Shown piece after piece: positions 19,880 through 37,709 of a stretch of 37,709 nt of DNA; the stretch's first letter is position 1, and every line of letters begins with the position of its first letter. Under the pieces are notes generated by a model. It was not told the origin of the DNA. It was given only the letters and a program-made list of their open reading frames with translations, and made no database searches. The position numbers and the translations under genes were made by a program. The stretch is taken from assembly GCA_025056735.1 (NCBI GenBank), contig JANWVR010000137.1:1-37709 (forward strand). Direction: 5' to 3'. Source of the stretch: Saprospiraceae bacterium. Lineage in GTDB: Bacteria > Bacteroidota > Bacteroidia > Chitinophagales > Saprospiraceae.

Positions 19880-20056
19880 AGCAGCGTATTTTTTGATTTC
19901 ATTGGGAAACATCACCCCCATGGTGCGGTTTTGCCAGTTTTGGTCAAAAGCCCATTTTCCCTGTTGCTAAGGTCAGACAATCGCCTTTGAAATACGCACG
20001 AGTAGTCCGCGCACTGCGCAGACAACGTTCTTCAAAGAAACCACAGAGGACGCAAA

Positions 20057-21499: not shown

Positions 21500-21538
21500 A
21501 CGTGCGAGGCGTTTCGTCGGCGAAGCAAATCCTGCGGA

Positions 21539-23392: not shown

Positions 23393-23396
23393 GTTC

Positions 23397-24641
23397 TCAG
23401 AGACCGAAGGCGCGGCGGATGTCGTCCACGGCATCTAATTTTTCCCACGTGAAGGTTTCCACTTCACGCGGCGTTGCCTGGCCGTTTTCGCCGAAGAGCA
23501 CCGTCTTTTTTTGAGGGGTGCGCCCAAAATGGCCGTAGGCTGCTGTTTCAGAGAAGATTGGATTTTTCAATCCCAGACGTCTGACGATGGCTGCCGGGCG
23601 CAGGTCGAAGATTTCCAGGAGGCGGCGTGCAATTTTGCCATCGTTCAGGCCTCTGACACGGCAGGTGCCGTAGGTGTTAACATAAAGGCCCACGGGCTGC
23701 GCTACGCCAATGGCGTAGGCGACCTGGACAAGGGCTTGCTCGCACAGCCCTGCAGCCACGAGGTTCTTGGCGATGTAGCGCATAGCGTACGCTGCCGAGC
23801 GGTCCACCTTAGAAGGATCCTTGCCGCTAAAGGCACCGCCGCCGTGCGCGCCCTTGCCGCCGTAGGTGTCCACAATGATTTTGCGGCCCGTCAGGCCCGT
23901 ATCGCCGTGTGGCCCGCCAATGACGAACTTACCCGTTGGGTTGATGAAGTAACGAATATTCTGGGTAAAGAGCCGCTGCAGGCGCGCCGGCAAGCGCTTT
24001 TTGACGCGCGGGATAAGGATACGCTGCACATCGCGGGCAATACGCTCCTGATTGACGTTCTCATCGTGTTGCGTGCTCAGCACAATGGTGTCAATGCGGC
24101 GCGGAATATGCCGGTCGCTGTACTCTACCGTTACCTGGCTCTTGGCGTCGGGGCGCAGGTATTTCATTTGCTTGCCCTCATGGCGGATTTCAGAGAGGTT
24201 AAGCAGCAGCTGATGCGATAACTCTAAAGCCAGCGGCATGTAGTTGTCGGTTTCGTTAGTGGCATATCCAAACATCATGCCCTGGTCGCCGGCGCCCTGT
24301 TCGTCTTCGCTGCGACCAACGTCCACGCCCTGAGCGATGTCAGGGCTTTGTTCGTGTAGGGCGCTAATAATGCCGCAGCTCTGGGCCTCAAACTGGTACT
24401 CAGCGCGCGTATAGCCAATGCGCTGGATGGTGCGGCGCGCCACCTCTTGTACGTCCACATAAGCGCGCGAGCGCACCTCGCCAGCCACGACGACCAATCC
24501 CGTCGTCACTAATGTTTCGCAGGCGACTTTAGCGTCCGGATCAAGGCGTAAAAACTCGTCTAATATGGCGTCGCTAATCTGATCGGCGATTTTGTCGGGG
24601 TGTCCTTCCGACACCGACTCGGAGGTGAATAAGTAAGGCAT
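23397..24641 (-). CDS. metK: S-adenosylmethionine synthetase
   Basis: Makes SAM from methionine and ATP. Hallmarks are all present: [21 protein letters not shown] (N-terminal methionine/ATP-binding block), [12 protein letters not shown] (the family hexapeptide region), [19 protein letters not shown] and the P-loop-like [16 protein letters not shown]. Length of 414 aa is within the usual range. A -7 box TACCTTTG sits 69 bases upstream. The 158-base leader region was read for a SAM riboswitch; I see no convincing one. The gene leads an apparent operon with an M1 peptidase and a membrane protein. Confidence 0.97.
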
Positions 24642-24709
24642 GTGGGTGATGTGGTTGTAATTTTTAACGGAAAAAAATGGACAGGGTGCGCTGCTTTTCT
24701 AAAGCCGCG

Positions 24710-24717
24710 CAAAGGTA
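24710..24717 (-). promoter_or_regulatory. -7 promoter box for metK
   Basis: The minus strand reads TACCTTTG, an exact fit to TAnnTTTG, 68 bases before the metK ATG at 24641. It would give a leader of about 60 bases. A TTG lies upstream but at 14 bases spacing, shorter than the usual 19-21, so the -33 half is weak. Confidence 0.55.
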
Positions 24718-24799
24718 GGCATTCGCGCCCGCAAAAAAGGGCCTCGACCGAACATTGTTGGCGTTAAAAGGAATTTTCCGACGCAAAGCCGACAAATAC

Positions 24800-27121
24800 T
24801 TACTGATAATACGGCAACCAGCGGCATTCTTCAACAATGCGCTGGTACGAAGCCGTCTTCTCATAGCGCTTCAGGAGCTTGTAATACCCGCTGTAGGCTT
24901 CGGGCAGCTGCGGTATCCTGTTGCTACCGGGCCGATAGCGGCAGTCGGGGTGGCAAAACCACTGTTTCTGCTGGCATCGAGCGGCCATGAATGCTGCGCG
25001 AGCCGCTAATTCAGGGTTCCGCGCCTCGGCTAAAGCTCGCTCAAAGTAATAAAGCGCCAGGTCCACGTCGGTATGCTCCCGATTGCCGCTGGGGCTGCCG
25101 CGCAGCGGGAATACCGGCCCTTGCGCCAGCCGGTTCCAATTGTAGCCGCTGCGATAAAAATCCGTTGCCGCCCAAGCATGACCGAAATAAGACATGTTGT
25201 AGTAGGCCAGGCCCACTAAGTAGAGATACCAGGCCGCCACGGGTTCGTTCATGGCTAAAGCCGCCTTAGCGCGTTGGTCGTATTCGAGGATTTTTTCGGC
25301 GATTTCTATGCGGTTTAAAAGCAAAGTATCCGTTACCGGGCGGTGTATTTTTTCATCAAAAAATTCCTTGAATGGGCTGAATTGATCCAAATATAGCTGT
25401 TGCGTGGGAGGTATTTGTTGAAATACGGCTAAAGCAGCCTCGGGCTGTCCCTGTCCCAGCAAGTAGGCGCCCTTTATTTCGAGCAGGCGGGCCAGCATCT
25501 GCTCCATGCTGGTGTCGCCGGGCATGAGCCGGAACAGGAAGATACTGGTATCGCTTCGGGCGAGTCGGATGAGGTCGTCGAGCTCATCTAATTTAGGGTT
25601 ATACAGGATAGCATCAGGGCCGTAAGCGATGACGACGGCTTTGCCTGGGTGTCTTTGGGCAGCATAGCGATCGCCCAATAGGTCGCGCGTGAAGGGCTCA
25701 AAGGCTGGTATCTCCCGAAAAAGGGACTCGCCCCGCAGGTCGAAGTACGCCTCATCGGTTGCTTCGGTTTTGCCATCGAGTTGCAGCAGTTGACTCAGTA
25801 GCTTCCAAACCTCTATCTGGCGTTTTAGGGTTTCGTCGTACTTATTGTTGGTCAGGCGGTCTAAGGCGCGTTTGAACGTAGTATCTGCTGCCACGAGGTC
25901 GTTGGCTAATAGCTCCAAGTAGCCTGTCATGGCTAACCACAGCTGCGGTTTAGGCGTTTTGCCTTCTTGGGCGATGCGGCGAGCGGCGCGCTGCAGGTCA
26001 ATGAGGCGCTGGGCGGCGTTGTCGCGTGGTTCACGCAGGATGGGGCCGCCTCTTCTCTTTTGCGTGAGCGCTGTTTGCAGAAAGATGCGCTCCAGCTCTT
26101 GAGTCATGCCCACGAGCATGAGTTCTAAATGCGGGCTTTCTGGTTCTAAGCGGTAGATATTTTCCAGGTCTGCCACGGAAAACGGCCTGTTTTTAGCAGC
26201 CCTCAGGAGGCGCAGCGTAGCGCGCTCTGAGTCGTTCTGACACAGGCGCAGTGCGGCCTTCCAATCGTTTTCATCTTTCAGATAAAAACTCCGGAACGCC
26301 TGGATGCGCTTAGATGGGCAATGTCGAAAGATGATGGAATAGCGATAAGCGGCTTCGGCCGTTTTGCCTAAGCGTTGGAGGGCGCCGGCCAGGTGTCCCA
26401 GCGCCCAATAGTAAGCCGCGCTGGGCCGTCGGCGATCAATCTTGGGCAGCAAATAATTGTACAGTGCTACCGTTTGCTCCCACAAGCCGGCATAGTGGGC
26501 TAAGCGCACGACCTGGTAGGCGTAGCGCATCCGCAGAAAGTGAGAGGAGGTGTGCAGCAAGCGCTCTTTTCCCTCTTCGATGAGTTGCTGCATCAACTCG
26601 ACGTTGCGCTGCGAGCGCGTCCAACCGTCGTTGGGTGGCGCGACGAAGGGTTCGCACTGACGGGCAAACACTAAGTAATCTAAGGCCTCAATACAGCCGT
26701 TGTAGGCCAGTACTTCGGCGAAAGTGTTGCCGATGAAAGGGTATGGAAGCTGCTCCGGCACAGCGCGCGCAAAGGCCAGATCGCGCAATACCAACAGGTC
26801 ATTGGTGTTGGCCTGGTAGACCACCATGTCCACATCTTCGGGTTTGGCGATGTTGCAAAAGCGATCGCGCCATTCGGCGATATTTTCCTCGCGCTGGTGG
26901 TCTTGCTGGAAATAATAACGCTCGTAGTAGTCGTCCCAGCGGGTAAAGAAAGGCGCGTAGGCGGCATTTTTGTTGATGATTTCAGGCAGTAAGAAGGAGT
27001 ACCCCCAAAAAGGGCGGGCCAGTGGGTCGCAGGCGCCTGTGGGTGGCAGGGTGCTCTCCCGTCGGTGGGCCGGCAGCAACAGGAGGACGCAGGCAATCAC
27101 AGCAATAAGTGGCAGTCGCAT
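24800..27121 (-). CDS. Large exported helical-repeat (TPR-like) protein, function unknown
   Basis: 773 aa with a short N-terminal hydrophobic segment (MRLPLIAVIACVLLLLPAH), consistent with export. The rest is strongly helical with degenerate TPR-like units (for example YYWALGHLAGALQRLGKTAEAAYRYSIIFRHCP, ELLANDLVAADTTFKRAL, YLLGQGQPEAALAVFQQIPP, LALYYFERALAEARNPELAARAAFMAARCQ). The last 60 residues carry several Cys and His residues. No catalytic motif is seen. The start is 30 bases after the mtgA stop on the same strand, so it is probably co-expressed with peptidoglycan glycosyltransferase. I do not recognise a named family. Confidence 0.8.
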   Translation of the reverse strand: MRLPLIAVIACVLLLLPAHRRESTLPPTGACDPLARPFWGYSFLLPEIINKNAAYAPFFTRWDDYYERYYFQQDHQREENIAEWRDRFCNIAKPEDVDMVVYQANTNDLLVLRDLAFARAVPEQLPYPFIGNTFAEVLAYNGCIEALDYLVFARQCEPFVAPPNDGWTRSQRNVELMQQLIEEGKERLLHTSSHFLRMRYAYQVVRLAHYAGLWEQTVALYNYLLPKIDRRRPSAAYYWALGHLAGALQRLGKTAEAAYRYSIIFRHCPSKRIQAFRSFYLKDENDWKAALRLCQNDSERATLRLLRAAKNRPFSVADLENIYRLEPESPHLELMLVGMTQELERIFLQTALTQKRRGGPILREPRDNAAQRLIDLQRAARRIAQEGKTPKPQLWLAMTGYLELLANDLVAADTTFKRALDRLTNNKYDETLKRQIEVWKLLSQLLQLDGKTEATDEAYFDLRGESLFREIPAFEPFTRDLLGDRYAAQRHPGKAVVIAYGPDAILYNPKLDELDDLIRLARSDTSIFLFRLMPGDTSMEQMLARLLEIKGAYLLGQGQPEAALAVFQQIPPTQQLYLDQFSPFKEFFDEKIHRPVTDTLLLNRIEIAEKILEYDQRAKAALAMNEPVAAWYLYLVGLAYYNMSYFGHAWAATDFYRSGYNWNRLAQGPVFPLRGSPSGNREHTDVDLALYYFERALAEARNPELAARAAFMAARCQQKQWFCHPDCRYRPGSNRIPQLPEAYSGYYKLLKRYEKTASYQRIVEECRWLPYYQ

Positions 27122-27151
27122 ACAGAATAAATGCCAGAAGAAGCCTCCGTC

Positions 27152-27940
27152 TTATTGTTTGGGTCGAGGCGTGTTGGGTTCGTCGTAGTCAATGCGCCCG
27201 CCCCACATCTGCATCTGACTCAGGATCCATTGCTGTCGGTTGCGCACCAGCGAGGACGGACGCGCTGGATTGCGCTTAAGCGGATTAGGCAACACAGCGG
27301 CCAGCAGTGCCGCCTCTTCTCGCGTGAGCCGGTCGGCACTTTTCTTAAAGAAATGTTGCGAGGCCGCTTCTGCACCATAGATGCCGTCGCCAAACTCAAT
27401 AACATTCAAATAAACGGTCATGATGCGCTCCTTACTCCAGAGGGTTTCTATTAAAAATGTAAAATACACCTCCAGCCCTTTGCGCAGCCAGGAGCGCCCT
27501 GGCCACAAAAAGACGTTTTTGGCCGTCTGCTGGCTAATGGTGCTGGCCCCCCGAATGCGCCGGCTCTTCTGGTTGTGTTCAATGGCTTTGCCAATGGCCT
27601 GAAAGTCAAAGCCCCAGTGTTCTAAAAAGGCCTGGTCTTCGGCACACACAACAGCCAGCTGCAGCTTGGGTGACAGCGACCCAAACGAAACCCAGTCGTG
27701 CTTCCAGCGCACCGGACGCTGGCTGTCGGAGGCCTGTTCTATGGTGCGAATGACCATAAGCGGTGTAATCAGCACCGGCACAAACCGATACACGACGACC
27801 AAGCCCACCGTAATACCCAAAAACCAGAGCGCCAAGCGGAGTACCCATCCGCGTACATAAGCACCCCAGCGGATGACGCCCTCTTCGTTGCGAGGCAGGC
27901 GCTGGTACCAGCGCCTCAAAATGTTCGTAATTGCGCGCAA
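27152..27940 (-). CDS. mtgA: Monofunctional biosynthetic peptidoglycan transglycosylase
   Basis: Inner-membrane GT51 glycosyltransferase that polymerises lipid II into glycan strands. One transmembrane helix (RLALWFLGITVGLVVVYRFVPVLI) precedes the GT51 domain, which shows motif 1 CAEDQAFLEHWGFD with the catalytic glutamate, motif 2 RGASTISQQTAKNVFLWPGR, motif 3 RKGLEVYFTFLIE and motif 4 KERIMTVYLNVIEFG. There is no transpeptidase domain, hence MtgA. The frame stays open to a TTG at 28009, but that codon overlaps a -7 box (28007-28014), so the start must lie downstream; no ATG is available, and TTG 27940 is my choice, with TTG 27916 as an alternative. Confidence 0.9.
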   Translation of the reverse strand: MRAITNILRRWYQRLPRNEEGVIRWGAYVRGWVLRLALWFLGITVGLVVVYRFVPVLITPLMVIRTIEQASDSQRPVRWKHDWVSFGSLSPKLQLAVVCAEDQAFLEHWGFDFQAIGKAIEHNQKSRRIRGASTISQQTAKNVFLWPGRSWLRKGLEVYFTFLIETLWSKERIMTVYLNVIEFGDGIYGAEAASQHFFKKSADRLTREEAALLAAVLPNPLKRNPARPSSLVRNRQQWILSQMQMWGGRIDYDEPNTPRPKQ

Positions 27941-28006
27941 GGCCTTCCTTCGTGTTGATTTATGGCAAATGAAATGGTTGAGCGAGGCGACGCTGTCTCT
28001 CTCGCA

Positions 28007-28014
28007 CAAAGGTA
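28007..28014 (-). promoter_or_regulatory. -7 promoter box for mtgA
   Basis: The minus strand reads TACCTTTG, an exact consensus fit. It overlaps the furthest upstream possible start of the mtgA frame and so limits where translation can begin. Confidence 0.55.
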
Positions 28015-28061
28015 GGGCAAGGAAAAATTCCGCTCCGTCGGCAAATTAGGCGCCGGCTCCG

Positions 28062-31000
28062 TCAGGGTTTAAAGCGCTTTAGCGCCTTACGCACAACGCG
28101 CGCCGCCTGGCGGATGGCTCGTCGCTCGGGGCGCTCGAAGGGCAGGGTATTGCCGTATAGCCGAAAACCCGCCCAATAGTACGGATGGCCTTTGTGGCTT
28201 TCGCACTGGCTCAGAAAGTTCCGCTGCGCGGTTTGCAGCGCATGCGCCTTGCTGTCCGTGCGCCGTTTGCGCAAAAGGCCGTAAAAATCCTCCATGATTT
28301 TCTGAGCAGCAGCGTCCTCAATGGCCCAATCGGCGCCAATCACACAGCGCGCACCCGCATGAGAGAAGGCCCTTGCCAGGCTTAAGCCATACGGATGACG
28401 ATAGGAAGGCGAAGCCGTTTCACAAGCAGAAAGACCGACCAGGCTGGTTTTCAAAGGAAGGGTCAGCACATCGGATGCATATAGATGGGCCGTGCTATCT
28501 TCTGGAGCGCTTTTCCAATAAAACACGGCATTGCTGGCGGCCAGGCTGTGCCCAACGATGTGAATGATCTGGCTCTTGCGCAGGGTGTCGAGCAGTTGCT
28601 CCTTGCTGAGCGAGTGGCTCAATAGAGTGCAGCCAAGGAGGCGGCCAACGCTTTGCGCCTCTTCCCTACCCTTTTTCAAGCGCTCATCCTGTGGGGCTAA
28701 CACATACGCGCGATTCCACTTCAAGGTCTCTTTTTCAGAAGTTCGGCTGGAAAGCCAATGCTGAGCCGAGTAAGCGTAGTAAATGGCGTACCGATGCATC
28801 AAATAGTCGTAATCGCAAGCCCGATCGGCCCTTTTCGGCCTGGGTAAGGCTGTGAGTAATGCCTCGAATGGCGCCTGAGCAAGCACTCCATGGGGCACGA
28901 TGGCCATGCTCTCTATACGCCCTGCGAGGCGTTGTTCCGCAGGTTTGAAGATGCGCAAATACAGATCATGGGCTGGCTCATAAAATGCCCGCATGCGCTC
29001 CGTTCGAGCCACCACCGCAGCGCGCAGAGCTTCCACCCGCTCCGAAAGCGGAAAGTCCAAGGCTATCTCAACCACATCGAGAGGCGCCTTTGAGGTGATG
29101 ATAAAAACGTAAATAGCCTCCTGCCCAACGAAGTAGTTCAACAGCGCTTCTTTTTTAGAGAGCTTTGCCGCTATCTGATTGGCAGCAACAGGAGGGAGCG
29201 TGGCCATAAGCGCAGGCGATAGCCGAGACAGCGTATCCAGGATACTGTAGTAAGCCTCATTGGCGCGTATCAACAGGTTTACCTGGTTTAAAGCAATCTG
29301 AGAGGACGCTGGCGTTGCCTCATTCAACCAATACCTGTATTTAATAGCGCGCTCCAGACATGCGGCGTACAGGCGCTTCCTCGCAGCCATGGCGCTATTA
29401 GACGCCGGGTCGCTTGCAATAGCGGAAATGGGCGCCCAGATGAAATTCTGGCATCGCTGTGCCGCCTCAAAGGCTTCCTCTAACAGTCGCCCGTCGTAGC
29501 AGCAGATGTATTGCTCGTAAGCCACGGCAATGCCCGTTTCCGTCAAACGCTCTAAGCGCGGCTGCAGGGCCAACAGTTGCTCTATGGATCGCGCCGCCTG
29601 ACGCAGATGCAAAACCAGCCGATAGCCCTCCTGAACAGCGTTTTCGGCCTTGAATAGGGCGTCCTCTGTGCCAGAAGAGGAGCGATATGCCGAAAGCAAA
29701 TACCTGGCTTTAGCCTCAAAGGCTTCCAGCAACAGCAGCCGCCCGGCATATGTTTGGTGCGCAGGGGCCTGTAAAAGAGGGATTGCTAATTCTACACATT
29801 GAAGCGCTTTGGATAAAGCGCCTTTAAGGGCATGCACTTCACCCAGAACTAAATAGACCCTCAATACACTGGAGTGGCCCTGAGTAAATACGGCCTGATA
29901 CCGCCGAAGGGCCTCCAATCCGTATCGTTCAGCCGTATCAAGCCGACCTTTCTTTGCGTGAAGTCGAGCCAACTGTTCCAGCAATGCTGCTTCCTCCGGC
30001 AGGGCAATATCAATGCGCGCCAGGACATCGGTTTGTTTGCGCCACAGGGTTTCGGCATCATCCAATCGCCCACGCTCCTGCATCAGCTGCCCCTGTACAA
30101 GGACCACCCGTGCAGCAAGGCGCAGTGCATCGAGCGTCTGCTCCTCACTGTTGCGTTGCAATCGGCTTAAATACTGCTCAGCCAGGTTGAAGGCACGTTG
30201 CTGAAGGGCGATTTCAGCAGCCGTTATCCAGACTTCACGGCAAGGCGTTGGGGACCCATTCGAGTGCTGTTCGCATTCGAATTGCGCTTGCAGGATATTC
30301 GCAGTGGCCTCGCTGTAAACCTCCTCGCTCGCCTTCAGGCGCGCTTTAATAAGCAACGCAGACGTCCAATAGCACTGATGCGACTCTTGGTGCGCCAGCA
30401 TAAGCGCCTGCGCCCGACTCAGTAGCCCATAGGCCTCCTGAACGCTGGACATCTGCTCATAGGCCGCACTGGCGCGCACTAAAGCCCCTACCCAGCGCAG
30501 CGTGTCCGGCGCAGGGTGTCGCTGCTCGCACTGCACAAGCATCTCAGCGCTCACGCAGGCGCACGCGAAATCAGCCCTACGCTCGCATGCTGCTAACATA
30601 TCTTCCCATACCTGCACTAAATAAGGACGGTCAGATAACGCCGCCGTAGAAAGATGAGCTTGAGCGGACGTATAATAAAACAGCGCTTTTGCATCGTCGC
30701 CTTGAGCAAAACTGACTCTACCTATGCAAATTTCTGCGTCGGCGGCAGCCTGTGAGGCGGCGCCAAACTGCTCAACCGCCAACCGACGAAAAACATCAAA
30801 CGCCTCCGATGCTTCGGCAAAACGTTCGCGACGAAATTCCACCAACCCTATCATCGCATGGGCCAGTGCCATCCGCCAGCGGTACTCCTCTCCAAAATGC
30901 TGGCCAGATGAAAGCCGTTTTCGCGCGCAAGCCTCTGCCGCAGCCAGATCCTCCTCGCATATGGTTGGCCCCAGCAACCAGCGCACCACTTCGTCCGAGG

Positions 31001-31184
31001 AAGCAGGCCAGAGAGCGCCTGTGCAAACCTGCCTCTCATCAACAATCTTCTCACTCTCAGCGTCCCAGACGGGGGTTTCAAGTGGGCCCACCGAAAAATT
31101 GCTCTGCCCCTCTTGACCCAGCACAGCGCCCAAAAAAGTGCTGAAAGACACTATTAGCCAAATCGGCAAAAATCGTTTTCGCAT
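28062..31184 (-). CDS. Exported TPR-CHAT caspase-like protease
   Basis: 1040 aa. A signal peptide (MRKRFLPIWLIVSFSTFLGAVLGQ) is followed by a long array of TPR-like helical repeats (about residues 75-600; for example EQYLSRLQRNSEEQTLDAL, LARLHAKKGRLDTAERYGLEALRRYQ) and a C-terminal CHAT domain (about 720-1020). The CHAT dyad is intact: His879 in IIHIVGHS and Cys921 in GLSACETA, with the downstream SHAGARCVIGADWAIEDAAA and KGHPYYWAGFRLYG blocks. CHAT domains are clan CD cysteine peptidases usually switched on by a sensor partner. The gene is divergent from a sigma factor and a membrane TPR protein (130-base shared promoter region), suggesting a common pathway. The target is not known. Confidence 0.88.
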   Translation of the reverse strand: MRKRFLPIWLIVSFSTFLGAVLGQEGQSNFSVGPLETPVWDAESEKIVDERQVCTGALWPASSDEVVRWLLGPTICEEDLAAAEACARKRLSSGQHFGEEYRWRMALAHAMIGLVEFRRERFAEASEAFDVFRRLAVEQFGAASQAAADAEICIGRVSFAQGDDAKALFYYTSAQAHLSTAALSDRPYLVQVWEDMLAACERRADFACACVSAEMLVQCEQRHPAPDTLRWVGALVRASAAYEQMSSVQEAYGLLSRAQALMLAHQESHQCYWTSALLIKARLKASEEVYSEATANILQAQFECEQHSNGSPTPCREVWITAAEIALQQRAFNLAEQYLSRLQRNSEEQTLDALRLAARVVLVQGQLMQERGRLDDAETLWRKQTDVLARIDIALPEEAALLEQLARLHAKKGRLDTAERYGLEALRRYQAVFTQGHSSVLRVYLVLGEVHALKGALSKALQCVELAIPLLQAPAHQTYAGRLLLLEAFEAKARYLLSAYRSSSGTEDALFKAENAVQEGYRLVLHLRQAARSIEQLLALQPRLERLTETGIAVAYEQYICCYDGRLLEEAFEAAQRCQNFIWAPISAIASDPASNSAMAARKRLYAACLERAIKYRYWLNEATPASSQIALNQVNLLIRANEAYYSILDTLSRLSPALMATLPPVAANQIAAKLSKKEALLNYFVGQEAIYVFIITSKAPLDVVEIALDFPLSERVEALRAAVVARTERMRAFYEPAHDLYLRIFKPAEQRLAGRIESMAIVPHGVLAQAPFEALLTALPRPKRADRACDYDYLMHRYAIYYAYSAQHWLSSRTSEKETLKWNRAYVLAPQDERLKKGREEAQSVGRLLGCTLLSHSLSKEQLLDTLRKSQIIHIVGHSLAASNAVFYWKSAPEDSTAHLYASDVLTLPLKTSLVGLSACETASPSYRHPYGLSLARAFSHAGARCVIGADWAIEDAAAQKIMEDFYGLLRKRRTDSKAHALQTAQRNFLSQCESHKGHPYYWAGFRLYGNTLPFERPERRAIRQAARVVRKALKRFKP

Positions 31185-31314
31185 TTTTGTCTTTTCTTAG
31201 CCGTAAATTTTAAATGGCACGGGCAAACGATGAACATCTTCCGCCTTTTTAATCAAGATTTTTTGCATAGTTCGCCATTTTCCTCGTAACATTTACTTGA
31301 CTCCCTGTACTGAT

Positions 31315-31911
31315 ATGCTGTTTCTAAAAAAGTCTTACAGCGATGACCAGATCATTGCTCAAATCAAGTCGGGCGGCGCAACACGAGAGGCTGCGCTGCA
31401 GTATCTGTTTGCGGAGTCTGGTTGGCGCGCCTCCGCCTTCCGGCTTATCCGATCGCTGGGCGGTACGCAGCATGAAGCAGAGGACGCCATACAAGAAGCC
31501 TTTATTGTATTCGATAACCATATCCGCACCGATCGTTACCAGCAAACCGGAGGGCTTAAAAGCTACTTTCTCGGCATCTGCCGTGGGCGTTGGTATTCCA
31601 ACCGCCGCAGCGTACGCCGCTTAGTTTACAGCGAGGAGCCAATTCCAAAACAGCGAGCTGATCATGAAGAACCCGAAAAATGGACCATAGAAAAAGAGCA
31701 AAGAGAGCAATTAAAAGCCTTAGTAAACCAATTGGACGAGCGCTGTCGCGAAATCCTGCATTTGTATAAGCTAAATTACTCCATGGAAGAAATCGCACAG
31801 GCCTTTCAATTGGGCACCGAGAATAACGCCCGCCAACGCGTCTTCCAATGCCGGCAAAAATTGGCAAAACTCATTCAACATAACCCATTCTTTAACGAGA
31901 GCGAGCTTTGA
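31315..31911 (+). CDS. Sigma-70 family (ECF-like) RNA polymerase sigma factor
   Basis: 198 aa. Region 2 is visible in SAFRLIRSLGGTQHEAEDAIQEAFIVFDNHI...LKSYFLGICRGRWYSNRR, and region 4 in LVNQLDERCREILHLYKLNYSMEEIAQAFQLGTENNARQRVFQCRQKLAKLI, with its helix-turn-helix. There is no region 1 or 3, so it is of the ECF type. The start is ATG 31315; a TTG at 31297 is less likely. The stop is 2 bases from the next ATG, so the sigma factor and the membrane protein are co-translated, the usual order for a sigma/anti-sigma pair. No good -7 consensus was found upstream, which would fit transcription from its own promoter class. Confidence 0.88.
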   Translation: MLFLKKSYSDDQIIAQIKSGGATREAALQYLFAESGWRASAFRLIRSLGGTQHEAEDAIQEAFIVFDNHIRTDRYQQTGGLKSYFLGICRGRWYSNRRSVRRLVYSEEPIPKQRADHEEPEKWTIEKEQREQLKALVNQLDERCREILHLYKLNYSMEEIAQAFQLGTENNARQRVFQCRQKLAKLIQHNPFFNESEL

Positions 31912-31913
31912 CG

Positions 31914-32801
31914 ATGAACGAGTCTCCCACCTATAATCGCATTGAGCGGTACTTACTGGGCCAGATGTCGCCCGAAGAACGCGCTATTTTTGAAGCTGAA
32001 CTGGAACGCGATCCAGTACTGGCGGAGCAGTTCGCCCTTCAACAACGCGAGCACGAAGCCTTAGAGGTAATTGTAGAAGACCGTCTGCGCGCCCAACTGA
32101 AAGCATGGGCGGAGCAATTTCCTCTGCGTGCGCCTGCGCCCTGGTACCGGCGACCCGCCACCTGGATGGCTGCAGCCAGCCTCCTCCTGCTGTCGGGTAT
32201 CCTGTATTTCGCCTGGCTCCGGCCTCATACAACCTATGACGCCGTTGCTCAAGGAGACAGCCCTTTGGAGACCTACGAGCCAACGCCGCTACCTAAGGAT
32301 TCCTCTACGGAAGAAACGGCTATCCAGCAACCGCCCGCAAGTACCGACGCTCCTGATGTAGCGCTTCGATACATCGCCTTAGCGGAGCGCTATACCGAGC
32401 GCCCAAAATTCCAGCGAATAATTGTCCGAAGCGAGCAAGAACAGCTCTCCTACATGGACTCCGCCTACCTGATCCTGGAAAAAGGCCAATACGCCAGGGC
32501 CATTCAACGCTTGCGGAGAATTCCCAAAAGCGACGACCACTATACCACCGCCCGCCATCTCATCGGGGAGGCGTTCTTTGCCAAGGCCGAATACGCCAGG
32601 GCTATTCCTTACCTCCAGGAAGCGGCCGATACGCCGGATTATTTGCGCAAAAGCGAAGCCGAGTGGCAATTAGCACTGGCTTTTCTCCACCTTAAAAAAA
32701 TTAAGAACAGCCGCCGTGTCCTGCGCCAGATAGCTAATGACACCACTCACCCCCGCTACGCAAAGGCTGTGCAACTGCTCAGCGAGCTCGAGCGGCAGTA
32801 A
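31914..32801 (+). CDS. Membrane anti-sigma-like protein with extracytoplasmic TPR domain
   Basis: 295 aa. The N-terminal cytoplasmic part (RIERYLLGQMSPEERAIFEAELERDPVLAEQF, 9-40) has the pattern often seen at the start of membrane anti-sigma factors; there is no zinc (HxxxCxxC) motif. One transmembrane helix (TWMAAASLLLLSGILYFAWL, 83-102) leads to a Pro/Thr/Ser-rich linker (about 115-147) and a TPR-like domain (about 181-293, including AYLILEKGQYARAIQRLRRIP and AFFAKAEYARAIPYLQEA). Start is ATG 31914, not the TTG at 31908. Context (directly after a sigma factor, divergent from a TPR-CHAT protease) supports a sigma-sequestering role, but this is inferred. It converges with the lpxD-like gene, 4 bases apart. 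Confidence 0.75.
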   Translation: MNESPTYNRIERYLLGQMSPEERAIFEAELERDPVLAEQFALQQREHEALEVIVEDRLRAQLKAWAEQFPLRAPAPWYRRPATWMAAASLLLLSGILYFAWLRPHTTYDAVAQGDSPLETYEPTPLPKDSSTEETAIQQPPASTDAPDVALRYIALAERYTERPKFQRIIVRSEQEQLSYMDSAYLILEKGQYARAIQRLRRIPKSDDHYTTARHLIGEAFFAKAEYARAIPYLQEAADTPDYLRKSEAEWQLALAFLHLKKIKNSRRVLRQIANDTTHPRYAKAVQLLSELERQ

Positions 32802-32805
32802 TCAG

Positions 32806-33756
32806 CTAATCCTCTGCCGTAGCCGTTCGCTGGCCGCGCATCCAATTGGGCAGCGAACGCAGGGCTGCCAGCTCGCGATATCGGACGCGCACCTCCTCTG
32901 CTGGCGAGCCAAAATATGTCTTACCGCCCTCCAGCGACTTGGATACGCCCGAACCCGCCAGCACTATAGCGCCTTTCCCTATCCGAACGGCCTGTATAAC
33001 CCCTACCTGGCCATACAGCACCACGTTGTCCTCAATAATGGCCTCACCGCCAATACCTACCTGCGCCGCAAACAGGCAATTCTTACCCACTATCGTATCG
33101 TGCCCGATGTGAATCTGGCAATCCAACTTTGAGCCGGCGCCAATGAGGGTATCCGAGCTCACGCCCTTGTTGATGGTACACCCGGCGCCGATGTCCACGT
33201 GGTCTTCGATGACCACGCGCCCGCCCGAACGCCACTTCTGAAAAGAACCATCGGGATGTTTTTTAAAATAAAAAGCGTCGCTGCCAATAATGCAATTTGG
33301 CCCAATACACACGTGCTCGCCGATGAGCGTGTACTCGCCGATGTACGTATTCGCCTGAATGTAAGAGTGGGCGCCAATCACCACGTTGGCGGCGACCACT
33401 ACGCCCGGTTCCAGGATGGCTGTTGGATGTATCTGCGCCCGGTGGCTGATAGGCGTCGTGCACGGATCGAAAGGCCGATACTCTCGGATGAGCGCGTCGT
33501 AAGCCTCAAATGGGTTTTCCACCACGAGGATGGCCTTGCCCGGCGGGCAGGGCGCCGGCGCATTGAGCAAGAGGATCGAAGCGGCGCTGTCCAAGGTCTT
33601 CTGGAAATACTTAGGTGCATCCGAAAAGGCAATGTCGCCCGGCTCCACGCGGTGTATTTCGTTGATGCCGTGAGCGTACAGGCGGTCGTCGCCAATGATC
33701 TGGGCGCCAAAGCGTTCAGCCAGCTGGCGGACGGGGATAGGTTGTGGAAATTTCAT
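32806..33756 (-). CDS. lpxD: UDP-3-O-acylglucosamine N-acyltransferase (LpxD family)
   Basis: 316-aa cytoplasmic left-handed beta-helix acyltransferase of lipid A synthesis. The N-terminal uridine-binding-like domain (VRQLAERFGAQIIGD...INEIHRVEPGDIAFSDAPKY) is followed by hexapeptide repeats (HPTAILEPGVVVAANVVIGAHSYIQANTYIG onwards), with the catalytic-type histidine in CQIHIGHDTIVGKNCLFAAQVGIGG. The start is ATG 33756; the longer frame to 33807 runs through a -7 box. It could be a second LpxD-like paralogue acting on another sugar nucleotide; the order and length of domains fit LpxD. Confidence 0.85.
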   Translation of the reverse strand: MKFPQPIPVRQLAERFGAQIIGDDRLYAHGINEIHRVEPGDIAFSDAPKYFQKTLDSAASILLLNAPAPCPPGKAILVVENPFEAYDALIREYRPFDPCTTPISHRAQIHPTAILEPGVVVAANVVIGAHSYIQANTYIGEYTLIGEHVCIGPNCIIGSDAFYFKKHPDGSFQKWRSGGRVVIEDHVDIGAGCTINKGVSSDTLIGAGSKLDCQIHIGHDTIVGKNCLFAAQVGIGGEAIIEDNVVLYGQVGVIQAVRIGKGAIVLAGSGVSKSLEGGKTYFGSPAEEVRVRYRELAALRSLPNWMRGQRTATAED

Positions 33757-33787
33757 GAAAAAAAGTAAGCGATTGAGCAATTCGGGG

Positions 33788-33795
33788 CAAAGGTA
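33788..33795 (-). promoter_or_regulatory. -7 promoter box for the lpxD-like gene
   Basis: The minus strand reads TACCTTTG, 31 bases before ATG 33756, giving a leader of about 25 bases and ruling out the longer frame starting at 33807. Confidence 0.55.
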
Positions 33796-33863
33796 CAGGC
33801 AGGGCAAGACCCTCTCGCTGGCAAAGTTGCCACAACCGCGTAAAAAGGCTTCTTTGGGGCCCG

Positions 33864-35351
33864 CTATTGCACCTCTACAAAGCGGAATTCCCTTTCATAG
33901 ATGCCCGCTTCTTCCATTTGGCGGGTCAGTCGGCTGGCCTGACTTTCGGCTTCGCTTTTTCGAGCGCTTGCTTTGCCTGCCATAACAACATAGCCCTTCC
34001 CCATGCCGATGCACTCTTCAGGCACTACAACCGCTTCAATACCGGCCTTTTTCAGCACTTCGGCGCGTTTAATAGCCAGCTCTTTTTGGACGAGGATGTT
34101 GTCGGCCAGTATCCATCCGCGCAGGTTGCGGTAAGGGTGGCAGGGCTGCTGCACCGGGTCAGGTTCGTCTTCGATGCCGGAAAGGTTGATGGTCGGGATT
34201 TCTTCGCCACCGATGGGCGCCGGCGGCTTGGGCGGGGGCGGCGCGGTTGTTGGCGCTAAAGGCTGACGTTCGAGCCGGTCAGGATACTGTTTGGGAATGC
34301 CGCGTGAGTTAAGGCCCTCGCCCTCGTACAAGAAGCCGTATTGGTCTTCAGGATTTCCGCTGCTCAAGTCGGCGACCTCTTCCACGGTTACTTCGTGGTA
34401 GGTGAATACGCGGTAGGCCAGCATACCTATCAGGAGACATGACAGAAGAAAAACCCACTTTTGCACGCCCTGGCTGCCCATATAACGCCCCCAGGCAGCT
34501 TCTATCGCCTCACGCGAGTCTGATGCTGCCTGCCCGGCTGTTTTGCCCAATCGGCCCAATACTAAGTATTGGAATGGGCGCATAACCTTGTTCCTGGCGC
34601 GCGTCAGCACCCCTGGCATCTTTCCGGGGCGGTAGTTTGCCAATACGCCCACGTTGTGCGCCATGGCCTGGTACCAGCTGCGTTGGGTGATCCAATGCAC
34701 CATGCGCCGGTCTTTGCCGTAAAGCCCCAGCCTCGAGGGCGCCACTAAGGCACGGACCTTTCCATCGGCTGAAACTAAAGCCAGCCCGAAGCCGTGGTAA
34801 ATGCACTGGTTGCGCAACTCCTCCAAATACGGGTCATTGGGCGCAGGGAAGACATCGTCTGCCAGAGCAATCCACTGCTCATCGGCATGATACTGCTTGA
34901 ATTGCTCGATAGCGTAAATGTAGCGATACTTCCGCCAGCTGCGCATCGCAAATGACCAGATTAAGGCGCCTATAATACCCATTCCAAGCACAAAACCAGC
35001 ATTTCCCGTCCAATCCAAATGCAAAAGCCACTCAAAGCGGATGCCGTAAGCAATAGCATAAGCAACCGCTGCCGTTACGGAGCCAAAGGCTAAGCAGTCC
35101 CACAAAAAATACCATGTATTCAGCGCATACTTCACCTCGCCGGCCTTATCCATCGAAGTAGCCTCGAAGGCACAGAAAAACGGCCGGCCGTCGGACGTGG
35201 TGAAAGAGAATACACCGTCTGCTATAAGACCGCCAGCTGCTACGTTGTCCAGCTGCAGCGCTTCTGTACCTGGCTGGTAATCATAACGATGCAGATAGAA
35301 ATGCCTTAAAAATTTAGGAAAGAGGCGTTTGATGTCGTCTTCGGTGATCAT
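33864..35351 (-). CDS. Membrane protein with three predicted TM helices and a possible SPOR-like C-terminus
   Basis: 495 aa from ATG 35351. Order: an N-terminal soluble part (MITEDDIKRLFPKFLRHFYLHRYDY...), two close transmembrane helices (about residues 86-104 and 112-133), a soluble region containing FPAPNDPYLEELRNQCIYHGFGLALVSADGKVRALVAPSR, a third helix (about 317-335), a Pro-rich linker (TTAPPPPKPPAPIG) and a C-terminal part with KRAEVLKKAGIEAVVVPEECIGMGKGYVVMAGKASARKSEAESQASRL, which looks like the alternating pattern of a SPOR-type peptidoglycan-binding fold. I do not recognise the whole protein. The longer frame to 35435 passes through a -7 box and was rejected. Confidence 0.75.
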   Translation of the reverse strand: MITEDDIKRLFPKFLRHFYLHRYDYQPGTEALQLDNVAAGGLIADGVFSFTTSDGRPFFCAFEATSMDKAGEVKYALNTWYFLWDCLAFGSVTAAVAYAIAYGIRFEWLLHLDWTGNAGFVLGMGIIGALIWSFAMRSWRKYRYIYAIEQFKQYHADEQWIALADDVFPAPNDPYLEELRNQCIYHGFGLALVSADGKVRALVAPSRLGLYGKDRRMVHWITQRSWYQAMAHNVGVLANYRPGKMPGVLTRARNKVMRPFQYLVLGRLGKTAGQAASDSREAIEAAWGRYMGSQGVQKWVFLLSCLLIGMLAYRVFTYHEVTVEEVADLSSGNPEDQYGFLYEGEGLNSRGIPKQYPDRLERQPLAPTTAPPPPKPPAPIGGEEIPTINLSGIEDEPDPVQQPCHPYRNLRGWILADNILVQKELAIKRAEVLKKAGIEAVVVPEECIGMGKGYVVMAGKASARKSEAESQASRLTRQMEEAGIYEREFRFVEVQ

Positions 35352-35375
35352 GCTGTTGGCAGATGCTGAATGGAG

Positions 35376-35383
35376 CAAAGGTA
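35376..35383 (-). promoter_or_regulatory. -7 promoter box for the membrane protein at 33864-35351
   Basis: The minus strand reads TACCTTTG, 24 bases before ATG 35351. It overlaps the upstream extension of that reading frame, fixing the start downstream. Confidence 0.55.
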
Positions 35384-35481
35384 CAGGATTGTCGCTAAGG
35401 AAGCCCTCAACAGCCACCTTAAACCGGGAACACATTGTTTGGCCTTTTATCTAAATAAAAACAATCTGTCTTAAAAATAAT

Positions 35482-35489
35482 TACCTTTG
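35482..35489 (+). promoter_or_regulatory. -7 promoter box for rmuC
   Basis: TACCTTTG on the plus strand, 29 bases before ATG 35519. It is divergent from the box at 35376-35383, about 100 bases away; the AT-rich stretch between them carries the 7-base inverted pair ATTGTTT/AAACAAT (35434-35440, 35459-35465). Confidence 0.55.
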
Positions 35490-35518
35490 CTGCGTCGGGC
35501 CAGTAAAACTGCCCGTGG

Positions 35519-36841
35519 ATGGTCATGGACAATACCCTACTCCTCTTAGTCGGCGCAATTGTACTGGTGCTCGTCGTCTTGCTGCTTTTAAAGCGAGCGC
35601 CTGTGGGCGAAAATGTCTCCGCCGAAGTGTATCGCGACCTTCAGGCGCAAAACGAGGTGCTTCAAAAGGCGCTTCAGGCCAAGGAGCAAGAGCTTCGAGA
35701 TGCGGTTGCTCAAATAGCCGCCCAGGCACAAACGCTAGCACATCAGCGCGACCAGCTGGAGCGTCAAAAAGCCGAACAGGAGCAGCTCGCCAAGCAAATG
35801 CGCTTAGAGTTCGAGCAATTGGCCAATCGCCTGTTCGAAGAAAAATCGCAGCGCTTCACCGAGCAAAACGCCCAGCAGCTTCATCAAACTCTGGCGCCGC
35901 TGCGCGAGAAAATCCGCGAATTCGAGGCGAGCATCGAGCGCAAGTTTACCGACGAAACCCGCGATAAGGCCAGCCTGCGCAAAGAGATTGAGCAATTAGT
36001 TGCGCTCAACCAACAACTCAGCCAGGACGCGCGCAACCTGACTGCAGCCCTCAAGGGCCAAAGCAAAGTACAGGGCGACTGGGGCGAGCATCAGCTCGAG
36101 GTCCTGCTCGAGAATGCCGGCCTGTTGCGTGGCGAGCATTTCGTGGCCCAAGCCACCTTCCGCGACGACGACCGGCAAACTAAACGACCAGATTACATCG
36201 TGCGACTGCCTCAACAACGACATCTAATCATAGACGCTAAAGTCTCGCTAACAGCCTTTGAGCGTTACTGCAGCGAGGATGACCCTGAAGCTCGCGAGCG
36301 GCACTTGCGCGCTCACGTGGATAGCCTGCGCGGCCACGTACAACAGCTCGGCAGCAAAAATTACCACGCGCTCTATCAAATCCATACACCCGACTTTGTC
36401 CTGCTCTACGTGCCCTTAGACGGCGCCGTCTCCACCGCCATGCAGGTCTATCCTGACCTGCTCCGAGAAGGTCTAGAGCGCAACGTGGTCATCGTTACCA
36501 ACAGCACGCTGGCCGTCATCCTTCGCATCGTTACCCATATCTGGCGGCAAGAAAAGCAAAATCGCTCTGCTTTAGAAATCGCCCGGCAGAGTGGCCTGCT
36601 CTACGACCGGTTAGTTGCCTTCGTAGAAGACCTGCGCACGGTAGGAGACCGCCTAAATGGCGCCCAAAAAGCCTATGACGACGCTATGCGAAAACTCACC
36701 ACTGGCGCTCGCCCTGGCGATACAATCATCGGGCGCGCCGAACGCATCCGCGAAATGGGCGCTAAAGCAACACGACAGCTCCCGCCCGAACTTTTCGAGG
36801 GTATTGCAGAAGAGGCTGACGAAGGAGAGGAGTCTTCCTGA
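35519..36841 (+). CDS. rmuC: DNA recombination protein RmuC
   Basis: 440 aa. An N-terminal membrane helix (LLLLVGAIVLVLVVLLLL) is followed by a long Gln/Glu/Ala-rich coiled coil (about 35-180) and the RmuC domain with VQGDWGEHQLEVLLENAGLLRGEHF, RPDYIVRLPQQRHLIIDAKVSLTAFERY and TPDFVLLYVPLDGA, a PD-(D/E)XK nuclease-like core in which the D and E of DWGE and the DAK of IIDAK are recognisable. RmuC limits DNA rearrangement at inverted repeats in E. coli; here the role is taken from the family. ATG 35525 is an alternative start. It ends 7 bases from the convergent mscL gene. Confidence 0.93.
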   Translation: MVMDNTLLLLVGAIVLVLVVLLLLKRAPVGENVSAEVYRDLQAQNEVLQKALQAKEQELRDAVAQIAAQAQTLAHQRDQLERQKAEQEQLAKQMRLEFEQLANRLFEEKSQRFTEQNAQQLHQTLAPLREKIREFEASIERKFTDETRDKASLRKEIEQLVALNQQLSQDARNLTAALKGQSKVQGDWGEHQLEVLLENAGLLRGEHFVAQATFRDDDRQTKRPDYIVRLPQQRHLIIDAKVSLTAFERYCSEDDPEARERHLRAHVDSLRGHVQQLGSKNYHALYQIHTPDFVLLYVPLDGAVSTAMQVYPDLLREGLERNVVIVTNSTLAVILRIVTHIWRQEKQNRSALEIARQSGLLYDRLVAFVEDLRTVGDRLNGAQKAYDDAMRKLTTGARPGDTIIGRAERIREMGAKATRQLPPELFEGIAEEADEGEESS

Positions 36842-36848
36842 TGCCGGC

Positions 36849-37133
36849 CTATTTGACTTCTTCAGGCTTATGGCCAGCAGCCTTTATTACAAAAAACAGT
36901 GCCGTACCAACGAGGATGAAATTGATCACCGCGTTGATAAAGTTGCCGATCATAACATTCCCGATGACCACCTGAGAAAAGTCTGGGTTGCCCGTGATCA
37001 TGCCCAAAATGGGCGAGATGATATCGTCCACTAAGGAACTGATCACTTTGCCGAATGCGCCACCAATGATAACGGCTACGGCCAGCGCGACGACATCGCC
37101 GCGGAGCAGGAATGCTTTAAGTTCTTGTAACAT
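36849..37133 (-). CDS. mscL: Large-conductance mechanosensitive channel
   Basis: 94-aa MscL homologue: a short amphipathic N-terminus (MLQELKAFLLRGDVVALAVAVIIGGAFGKVISSLVDDIISPILG) forms the pore-lining first helix, a loop of about 20 residues follows, and the second helix is FINAVINFILVGTALFFVIKAAG. It is shorter than E. coli MscL (136 aa) mainly because the C-terminal cytoplasmic helical bundle is missing and the loop is short; it still has both membrane helices. Start is ATG 37133; the frame to 37175 adds 14 residues overlapping the promoter box. Confidence 0.93.
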   Translation of the reverse strand: MLQELKAFLLRGDVVALAVAVIIGGAFGKVISSLVDDIISPILGMITGNPDFSQVVIGNVMIGNFINAVINFILVGTALFFVIKAAGHKPEEVK

Positions 37134-37172
37134 GAGCTTTTCGCATTGATGTGAACAAATGCAATCGTGCGG

Positions 37173-37180
37173 CAAAATTA
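37173..37180 (-). promoter_or_regulatory. -7 promoter box for mscL
   Basis: The minus strand reads TAATTTTG, a match to TAnnTTTG, 39 bases before ATG 37133. Confidence 0.5.
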
Positions 37181-37205
37181 TGCAATAATACTGTGAAGGG
37201 CCTGC

Positions 37206-37709
37206 CTATTCCACCCAGAACAACTCCGCAGCGATGTAATCGGCCAGTAGCTTCCCTGCGCGCGTCAGTCGGTAGTGCCCATCGAGCGACTCCACCTGGC
37301 CAGCAGCAACGAAGCGCCGAGCATGCCGTTCAAAATGCTCAGCGAAGGGGCGCCCGAACCTTGCAGCAATGTCGGCTAATCGGCATCCCCACAGGGTGCG
37401 CAGGCGGGTCAGAACGTATTCGTTGTAGCGTTGCGCCAGCGTAAGCACCTCGCGCTCGGCCGGGATATGGCCTTCGTTTATGGCCTTGATGTACAGGGCG
37501 TTATTGGCGATGTTCCACTGCCGGCTAGCGCCGTCGAACGAATGCGCCGAAGGGCCGATACCCAGATAAGGTTGCCCAAACCAGTAACTGCTGTTGTGTC
37601 GAGCATAGCGGTCGGGCAGCGCAAAATTGGAAATCTCGTAGTGCTCATAGCCGTGCCGTTCGGCTTCGTCCATCAGGCGCTCAAACTGGCGCGCGGCGCG
37701 CTCTTCGTC
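37206..37709 (-). CDS. hemW: HemW-like radical SAM coproporphyrinogen oxidase homologue, C-terminal part
   Basis: Partial: the frame is open to the window edge, so only the last 167 residues are present. The HemW C-terminal signature is clear: GYEHYEISNFALPDRYARHNSSYWFGQPYLGIGPSAHSFDG, followed by YNEYVLTRLRTLWG and the winged-helix-like end DGHYRLTRAGKLLADYIAAELF. HemW is a haem chaperone often misannotated as oxygen-independent coproporphyrinogen III oxidase. The radical SAM cysteine motif lies outside the window and cannot be checked. Confidence 0.9.
   Translation of the reverse strand, partial: DEERAARQFERLMDEAERHGYEHYEISNFALPDRYARHNSSYWFGQPYLGIGPSAHSFDGASRQWNIANNALYIKAINEGHIPAEREVLTLAQRYNEYVLTRLRTLWGCRLADIAARFGRPFAEHFERHARRFVAAGQVESLDGHYRLTRAGKLLADYIAAELFWVE

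Follow-up and report, generated by a model that had tools for sequence, protein, structure and literature searches.

A possible protease-gated sigma switch: a TPR-CHAT protein divergent from an ECF sigma factor and a membrane anti-sigma-like protein in Saprospiraceae

Three genes at a Saprospiraceae locus

We analysed a stretch of 37,709 nucleotides (hereafter the window) on contig JANWVR010000137.1 of a Saprospiraceae bacterium (assembly GCA_025056735.1), in which a CHAT protease with tetratricopeptide repeats (TPRs) is encoded divergently from an extracytoplasmic function (ECF) sigma factor and a membrane protein resembling an anti-sigma factor. The reading towards which we lean, with some reserve, is that these are the separate parts of a protease-gated sigma switch, in which the exported CHAT protein would cut the membrane anti-sigma and so free the ECF sigma. 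The TPR-CHAT protein (1040 amino acids (aa); 28062..31184, minus strand) was assigned from its PF12770 match, its AlphaFold2 (AF2) model and its orthologues. On the plus strand, the sigma gene is followed by that of the membrane protein (295 aa; 31914..32801), whose ATG at 31914 comes two bases past the sigma stop at 31911. This three-gene layout, including the two-base spacing, had been set out in a preliminary description of the locus and held up in our open reading frame (ORF) and profile checks. The sigma ORF (31297-31911) matches TIGR02937 (sigma70-ECF) with an E-value of 1.2e-18 (67.3 bits against a cut-off of 42.9). It opens at a TTG at 31297 and has an in-frame ATG at 31315; because a conserved promoter (31286-31311) overlaps the TTG, the ATG is the likely start, giving a gene at 31315..31911. 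The source genome (3.74 Mb) holds two PF12770 matches, one in the window and one on contig C66 (locus L003), and at both an ECF sigma and then a protein with one transmembrane (TM) helix and TPR-like repeats lie nearby.

The CHAT domain (PF12770, E 4.5e-41, 141.6 bits against a gathering score of 24) covers residues 736-1012 (28149..28979, minus strand), with the TPRs upstream of it, and the AF2 model of the whole protein has a mean pLDDT of 86.9 and a pTM of 0.85. His879 (codon 28548..28550) and Cys921 (codon 28422..28424) are invariant across 45 aligned relatives; each is kept in 99 of 100 CHAT ORFs, and both are kept in all 73 CHATs from sigma-containing loci. Judged by this conservation, the two residues are the CHAT dyad, intact as first described, and its retention in every sigma-linked CHAT argues for catalysis. 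The N-terminus of the window protein looks like a signal peptide by eye and hydropathy, no dedicated predictor having been used. Among sigma-linked CHATs, a hydrophobic N-terminus is present in 57 of 72 and a C-terminal TM helix with a basic tail in 20 of 73, both of which fit a site outside the cytoplasm, and the protein is probably exported and extracytoplasmic. Residues 54-330, in the N-terminal TPR part, are Cys-rich, and C54, C86 and C153 are invariant in the two orthologues introduced below; a redox role for these cysteines is possible.

In the AF2 model of the membrane protein (mean pLDDT 85.3, pTM 0.57), helices at residues 5-14, 20-32 and 34-68 precede a TM helix at 83-101 (32160..32216), which is followed by a low-confidence, presumably disordered linker, a helix at 149-160 and a TPR domain at 180-294 (32451..32795). 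The anti-sigma model NF052375 matches the protein with an E-value of 3.4e-7, at 30.5 bits against a cut-off of 100. When the N-terminal family profile was searched against the PDB, the best match was 3hug_B (E 0.0016), which we take to be an anti-sigma/sigma complex, and the N-terminus of DdvA, a Myxococcus xanthus anti-sigma, matched weakly (8rlz, E 0.55). Residues 5-68 (31926..32117) are therefore a probable cytoplasmic anti-sigma domain. A zinc-ligand anti-sigma domain was considered and rejected, no Cys being conserved in an N-terminal alignment of 25 sequences; among the 67 members of the family, zf-HC2 matches 8 and TPR_19 matches 34. Lys and Arg are commoner before the TM helix than after it in 57 of the 67, which means that the TPRs should face out and the N-terminus in. 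The protein thus has the layout of a transmembrane anti-sigma, directly after a sigma gene, with one TM helix and the N-terminus inside (orientation by Lys/Arg count alone), and the one-TM protein with an anti-sigma-like N-terminus and extracytoplasmic TPRs described earlier is recovered as a predicted topology. With the TPR part as query, the best Foldseek match was the YbgF TPR domain (2xev, E 2.0e-3), none reaching E 0.001. Two 25-base copies, 84% identical, lie inside this gene (32481-32505 and 32583-32607) and are possibly the trace of a recent TPR duplication.

Linkage of CHAT, sigma and anti-sigma genes

Conserved co-occurrence of the three genes had been proposed as a test of their joint function, and such co-occurrence was indeed found. 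For nine genomes of the same genus, in which 77 PF12770 matches were listed, several kb were fetched on each side where the contig allowed. An ECF sigma lay in the fetched flank of 52 of the 77 CHATs against 8.9 expected by chance, the latter figure being based on 22-53 sigma70-ECF (TIGR02937) matches per genome and 8 kb flanks, with fetched flanks that vary in length and a sigma profile seeded near CHATs. Outside the genus, at loci hand-picked among the matches listed, sigma and anti-sigma accompanied 15 of 21 CHAT ORFs in other genera of the family, order and class (20 loci) and 1 of 23 in the rest of the phylum (20 loci). The linkage therefore seems characteristic of the class; in the phylum, 120 of 247 genomes have a CHAT match at 1e-15.

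Gene order varies between loci. The 73 sigma hits gave 67 anti-sigmas (one hit had no following ORF, four were followed by ORFs judged not to resemble anti-sigmas and one was a duplicate). Of these 67, 21 adjoin a convergent CHAT gene, 12 adjoin one on the same strand at the anti-sigma side, 12, like that of the window, adjoin a divergent one at the sigma side, and the other 22 show different arrangements; same-strand gaps from anti-sigma to CHAT measured -6, 5 and 7 bases. Since divergent, convergent and same-strand orders all occur, the link is more than a shared divergent promoter.

Sigma/anti-sigma pairs of the same type also occur without CHAT within the fetched stretches (L212, L214, L216 and L222-L224), and at L222 and L223 an exported protein, presumably PorP/SprF-like, is encoded nearby, which hints that this anti-sigma type has other inputs as well. 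At L087 (G021:C26:45500-65000), three CHAT genes stand in a row behind one sigma/anti-sigma pair; genome G021 has 26 CHAT matches, the maximum among the same-genus genomes listed.

A conserved arginine and a predicted shared promoter

Many CHAT-linked anti-sigmas carry an aromatic-P-x-Arg-small motif between the linker and the TPRs. To the post-TM regions of the 67 genus members we aligned those of 15 held-out CHAT-linked members from outside the genus and of 18 anti-sigmas without a CHAT within 10 kb, a set that leaves out one candidate (G007:C2:843768) and includes two weaker hits (L226 and L227). At one column, Arg occupies 49 of 57 alignable rows in the genus, all 14 alignable held-out rows and 1 of 13 alignable CHAT-free rows, making 63 of 71 CHAT-linked rows against 1 of 13 (Fisher 1.3e-8, uncorrected for descent). 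Gaps account for 11 of the 82 CHAT-linked rows (10 in the genus, one held-out) and 5 of the 18 CHAT-free rows; scored as non-Arg, they leave Arg in 63 of 82 against 1 of 18. One CHAT-free member, L218, is the pair on G009:C4 that lies 6.8 kb from a CHAT, so that its label may be wrong. A regular expression for the motif, which was not chosen on the 15 held-out members, matched 10 of them against a shuffled mean of 2.49, with 0 of 500 shuffles reaching 10; among the 18 CHAT-free members it matched 6, where shuffling gave a mean of 5.5.

In the window, the residue at this column is R172 (32427..32429, plus strand), which is predicted to be extracytoplasmic, as is CHAT, and to lie at the boundary between linker and TPRs. 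We propose it as the candidate P1 residue for CHAT cleavage, in preference to the linker at residues 115-147, earlier put forward as candidate cleavage zone. Eukaryotic separase cuts after EXXR, with Arg at P1 (reported in PMC9729208), which provides a precedent in the fold family. On the CHAT side, residue D957 is Asp in 46 of 49 pairs with an Arg-type site and in 8 of 18 others, and where the site is non-basic, this position is S, G, Q or T in several pairs and still D in others. This covariation is suggestive only, being confounded by descent and including one pairing, at L127, that is probably wrong (two anti-sigmas, one CHAT). Separase D2151 has been read as the contact of the P1 Arg (PMC9729208); it was rejected as a direct counterpart of D957, the two lying 4 residues apart on the alignment by our own count.

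The Arg signature also bears on what the protease cuts. Its target might be another extracytoplasmic protein encoded nearby, such as the PKD protein at L003, with the sigma pair merely belonging to the same stress module, and large, probably exported proteins do lie between sigma and CHAT at L003, L068 and L071. However, among the loci listed those neighbours vary while the anti-sigma recurs, and it is in the anti-sigma that the Arg signature sits; we regard a different target as quite unlikely.

The same trio is present in two further species, with sigma orthologues of 79% (G002) and 67% (G011) identity and CHAT orthologues of 54% and 43%, respectively. All three species share GTAAC-N15-TGTACT upstream of the sigma gene. 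In their three genomes this pattern has 7 matches, against 4 for a reversed-pattern control: the three sigma sites, a site before the same gene in G000 and in G002, and a single additional match in each of G002 and G011. In G011, the orthologue of that second target gene has a site with one change. A refined pattern, GTAAC-N14-CTGTAYT, has exactly two exact matches in each genome, before the sigma gene and before the second gene, which is cysteate-synthase-like; as it was derived from its own sites, this count contains some circularity, and allowing one mismatch brings its frequency no higher than that of the control. The boxes are identical at 11-12 of 12 positions and the spacers at 2-9 of 14. 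In four genomes whose best sigma match is at most 34%, the orthologous cysteate-synthase-like gene has at least 3 mismatches upstream. In the window, the predicted autoregulatory site reads GTAAC-N14-CTGTACT (31286..31311, plus strand) and lies at the same place in the three species. In all three loci, its -10 box is separated from the ATG by a few bases only (31286-31317 in the window), and the sigma mRNA may therefore be leaderless. The two-box promoter was found for this orthologue group only; a two-box enumeration over 71 upstream regions of paralogue sigmas against 740 background regions gave nothing clear in common.

The second target encodes a pyridoxal phosphate enzyme, which matched cysteate synthase best (460 bits) and cystathionine beta-synthase next (377). 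Cysteate synthase is described as the first step toward capnine-type sulfonolipids (PMC11211663), and sulfonolipid synthesis is a possible output of the sigma in this orthologue group. Before the CHAT gene, no sigma-type promoter was found, the best match in the 250 upstream bases having 4 mismatches in the three species, and CHAT was rejected as a target of this promoter.

These sites also speak to the possibility that CHAT is itself a sigma output, a secreted protease or stress effector, with the sigma freed in some other way and the anti-sigma TPRs acting as sensor. Sigma regulons commonly have their genes in divergent or co-directional order, and in the 12 of 67 cases where CHAT follows the anti-sigma on the same strand, a sigma that drives its own operon would induce CHAT along with it. 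However, in three loci the promoter stands before the sigma and the cysteate-synthase-like gene rather than before CHAT, and an output role leaves both the Arg column and the CHAT domain inside DdvA unexplained. An output role is thus unlikely; the lack of a promoter argues that CHAT acts upstream of the sigma, as its input rather than its target, which is probably the case.

G002 and G011 also share the surroundings of the trio: an lpxD-like gene flanks it on one side, and on the other lie an mtgA-like gene, a gene for a 773/777-aa protein and a gene that we take to be metK-like. In the window, where lpxD and mtgA were named by profile match, mtgA (a peptidoglycan transglycosylase) and the 773-aa protein trail CHAT on the same strand (27152-28009 and 24800-27121), and their order after CHAT is kept in both other species. 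The 773-aa protein had no match in Pfam (E 0.1) or NCBIfam (E 0.001).

The proposed switch and its known relatives

In the switch that we propose, the ECF sigma would be held at the membrane by the cytoplasmic helices of the membrane protein. An envelope signal would be sensed by the exported TPR-CHAT protein, which would become active, and the short outer TPR domain of the anti-sigma would dock CHAT or offer it a loop. Active CHAT would then cut after R172, between linker and TPRs, and intramembrane (RseP-type) and cytoplasmic proteases would finish the anti-sigma and release the sigma; one RseP scores above cut-off in the source genome. The freed sigma would transcribe its own operon and the cysteate-synthase-like gene, raising the sulfonolipid supply for the outer membrane. 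The preliminary description had imagined a CRISPR-free, extracytoplasmic CHAT acting on the outer part of the anti-sigma, and linkage, dyad, predicted topology and Arg site support this, the cleavage being what we infer from them. A broader version, in which paralogous units widespread in the class each use a separase-like exported TPR-CHAT to cut a cognate anti-sigma after the conserved Arg, one unit controlling cysteate synthase, seems to us plausible, if a little short of probable.

Several observations weigh against the switch. Beside the sub-threshold NF052375 match and the descent behind the D957 covariation, sigma-linked CHATs do not have the C-terminal TM helix more often (20 of 73) than others do (11 of 27), and the cysteate-synthase match stays below its cut-off (460 against 600 bits). 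In the same genus, the fetched flank contained no sigma for 25 of the 77 CHATs, although a contig end comes within 200 bases of three of these, the fetched sequence to one side measures 465 bases for one and 1.7-3.6 kb for four others, and the CHAT on G009:C4 has its sigma/anti-sigma pair 6.8 kb off, beyond the fetched flank. Conversely, 17 of 63 anti-sigmas of the same type have no CHAT within 10 kb, the 46 of 63 near a CHAT being a biased figure since the search profile was built from CHAT-linked members. Neither protein, then, needs the other everywhere. As for the cleavage site, CHAT-linked rows without Arg have M in 5 cases and K, E and G in one each; the regular expression, chosen after viewing the 67, was modest on them (41 matches, where shuffling gave 24.8 on average and 35 at most); and the CHAT-free comparison set is small, contains orthologue groups and is basic at this position in 7 of its 13 alignable rows (K in 6, R in 1), so that basicity alone discriminates less well than Arg.

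Some of these points fit a CHAT that does not cut, serving as partner or sensor whose TPRs bind those of the anti-sigma and shift its conformation while another site-1 protease cuts. Both outer domains are TPRs, anti-sigmas of this type occur without a CHAT nearby, and the basic residue in CHAT-free members suggests that another protease may serve them; moreover, the CHAT domain of DdvA is reportedly periplasmic with an incomplete active site. Against this stand the His and Cys kept in every sigma-linked CHAT, and we consider a non-cutting role quite unlikely.

If the protease-gated switch is right, CHAT proteases, so far met mainly in CRISPR-linked and cell-death contexts, would have a routine job as site-1 proteases in envelope signalling, a step for which most Bacteroidota anti-sigmas have no known enzyme. 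On the broader version, genomes with up to 26 CHATs would hold many insulated protease-anti-sigma channels, each with matched site and pocket. The switch also yields single-residue and single-promoter predictions, including a candidate regulator of sulfonolipid synthesis.

Among known systems, the nearest in sequence is DdvA-DdvS of Myxococcus xanthus (PDB 8rot, 8rw5, 8rlz), where DdvA, titled a transmembrane anti-sigma factor, carries a CHAT domain and DdvS is reported to control a defence island (PMC12288465). A single-sequence PDB search with the CHAT protein gave no match up to E 0.1; a profile of its CHAT part found DdvA first (E 6.2e-11) and Craspase chains next (from 6.6e-7), so that the trio may be a two-protein version of DdvA. 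DdvA has its CHAT on the anti-sigma chain, whereas here a separate CHAT has an intact dyad and the anti-sigma has short TPRs only. A DdvA-type fusion was rejected for the fetched loci, none of 154 CHAT ORFs matching the anti-sigma N-terminal profile at E 1e-3. By analogy, the presence of both functions on one chain in DdvA is the strongest independent hint that CHAT and anti-sigma belong together.

The preliminary description had taken Csx29 as analogue. In type III-E CRISPR systems, Csx29 is a TPR-CHAT protease linked to Csx30, an inhibitor of an ECF-like sigma (CASP-sigma), and in the authors' model cutting Csx30 relieves sigma inhibition (PMC10028731). By fold, Foldseek with the CHAT model placed separases top, Craspase/Csx29 chains at ranks 8 and 9 and DdvA at ranks 16 and 21; by sequence profile, DdvA leads. 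The low rank of DdvA by fold, below both separase and Csx29, is a further point against our reading. Csx29 is RNA-guided by Cas7-11, and the partner protein in our locus has a TM helix; membership in the Csx29 family was rejected, CHAT scoring 19.4 and 23 bits against a cut-off of 300. Within 20000-37709 only two-copy repeats, and no CRISPR array, were found, and 15 window proteins scanned gave no match to PADLOC defence genes. Separase, the top fold match, differs in substrate and compartment.

Two other systems touch on parts of the locus. CHAT-domain proteins occur in the genetic context of ECF54 sigmas, for which proteolytic control has been proposed, but ECF54 sigmas come without an anti-sigma and the proposed proteolysis is of the sigma itself (PMC8999054). 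The Dma anti-sigmas of Bacteroides likewise combine an anti-sigma domain, a TM helix, a disordered tether and an extracytoplasmic domain with a cognate ECF sigma, but their outer domain is a beta-barrel, and the text of that source has neither the word CHAT nor tetratricopeptide (PMC13088901). A literature search, with most subscription papers outside its scope, gave among the papers listed no report of a CHAT with a membrane anti-sigma in Bacteroidota. Control of a sigma through CHAT is already known from Csx29-Csx30-CASP-sigma and DdvA and has been noted for ECF54, while the two-protein extracytoplasmic form predicted here in Bacteroidota and its Arg signature appear, within that search, to be new. 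If the broader version is right, the trio would represent DdvA in two-protein form and, equally, the extracytoplasmic equivalent of Csx29-Csx30, and these two systems would be two versions of one idea.

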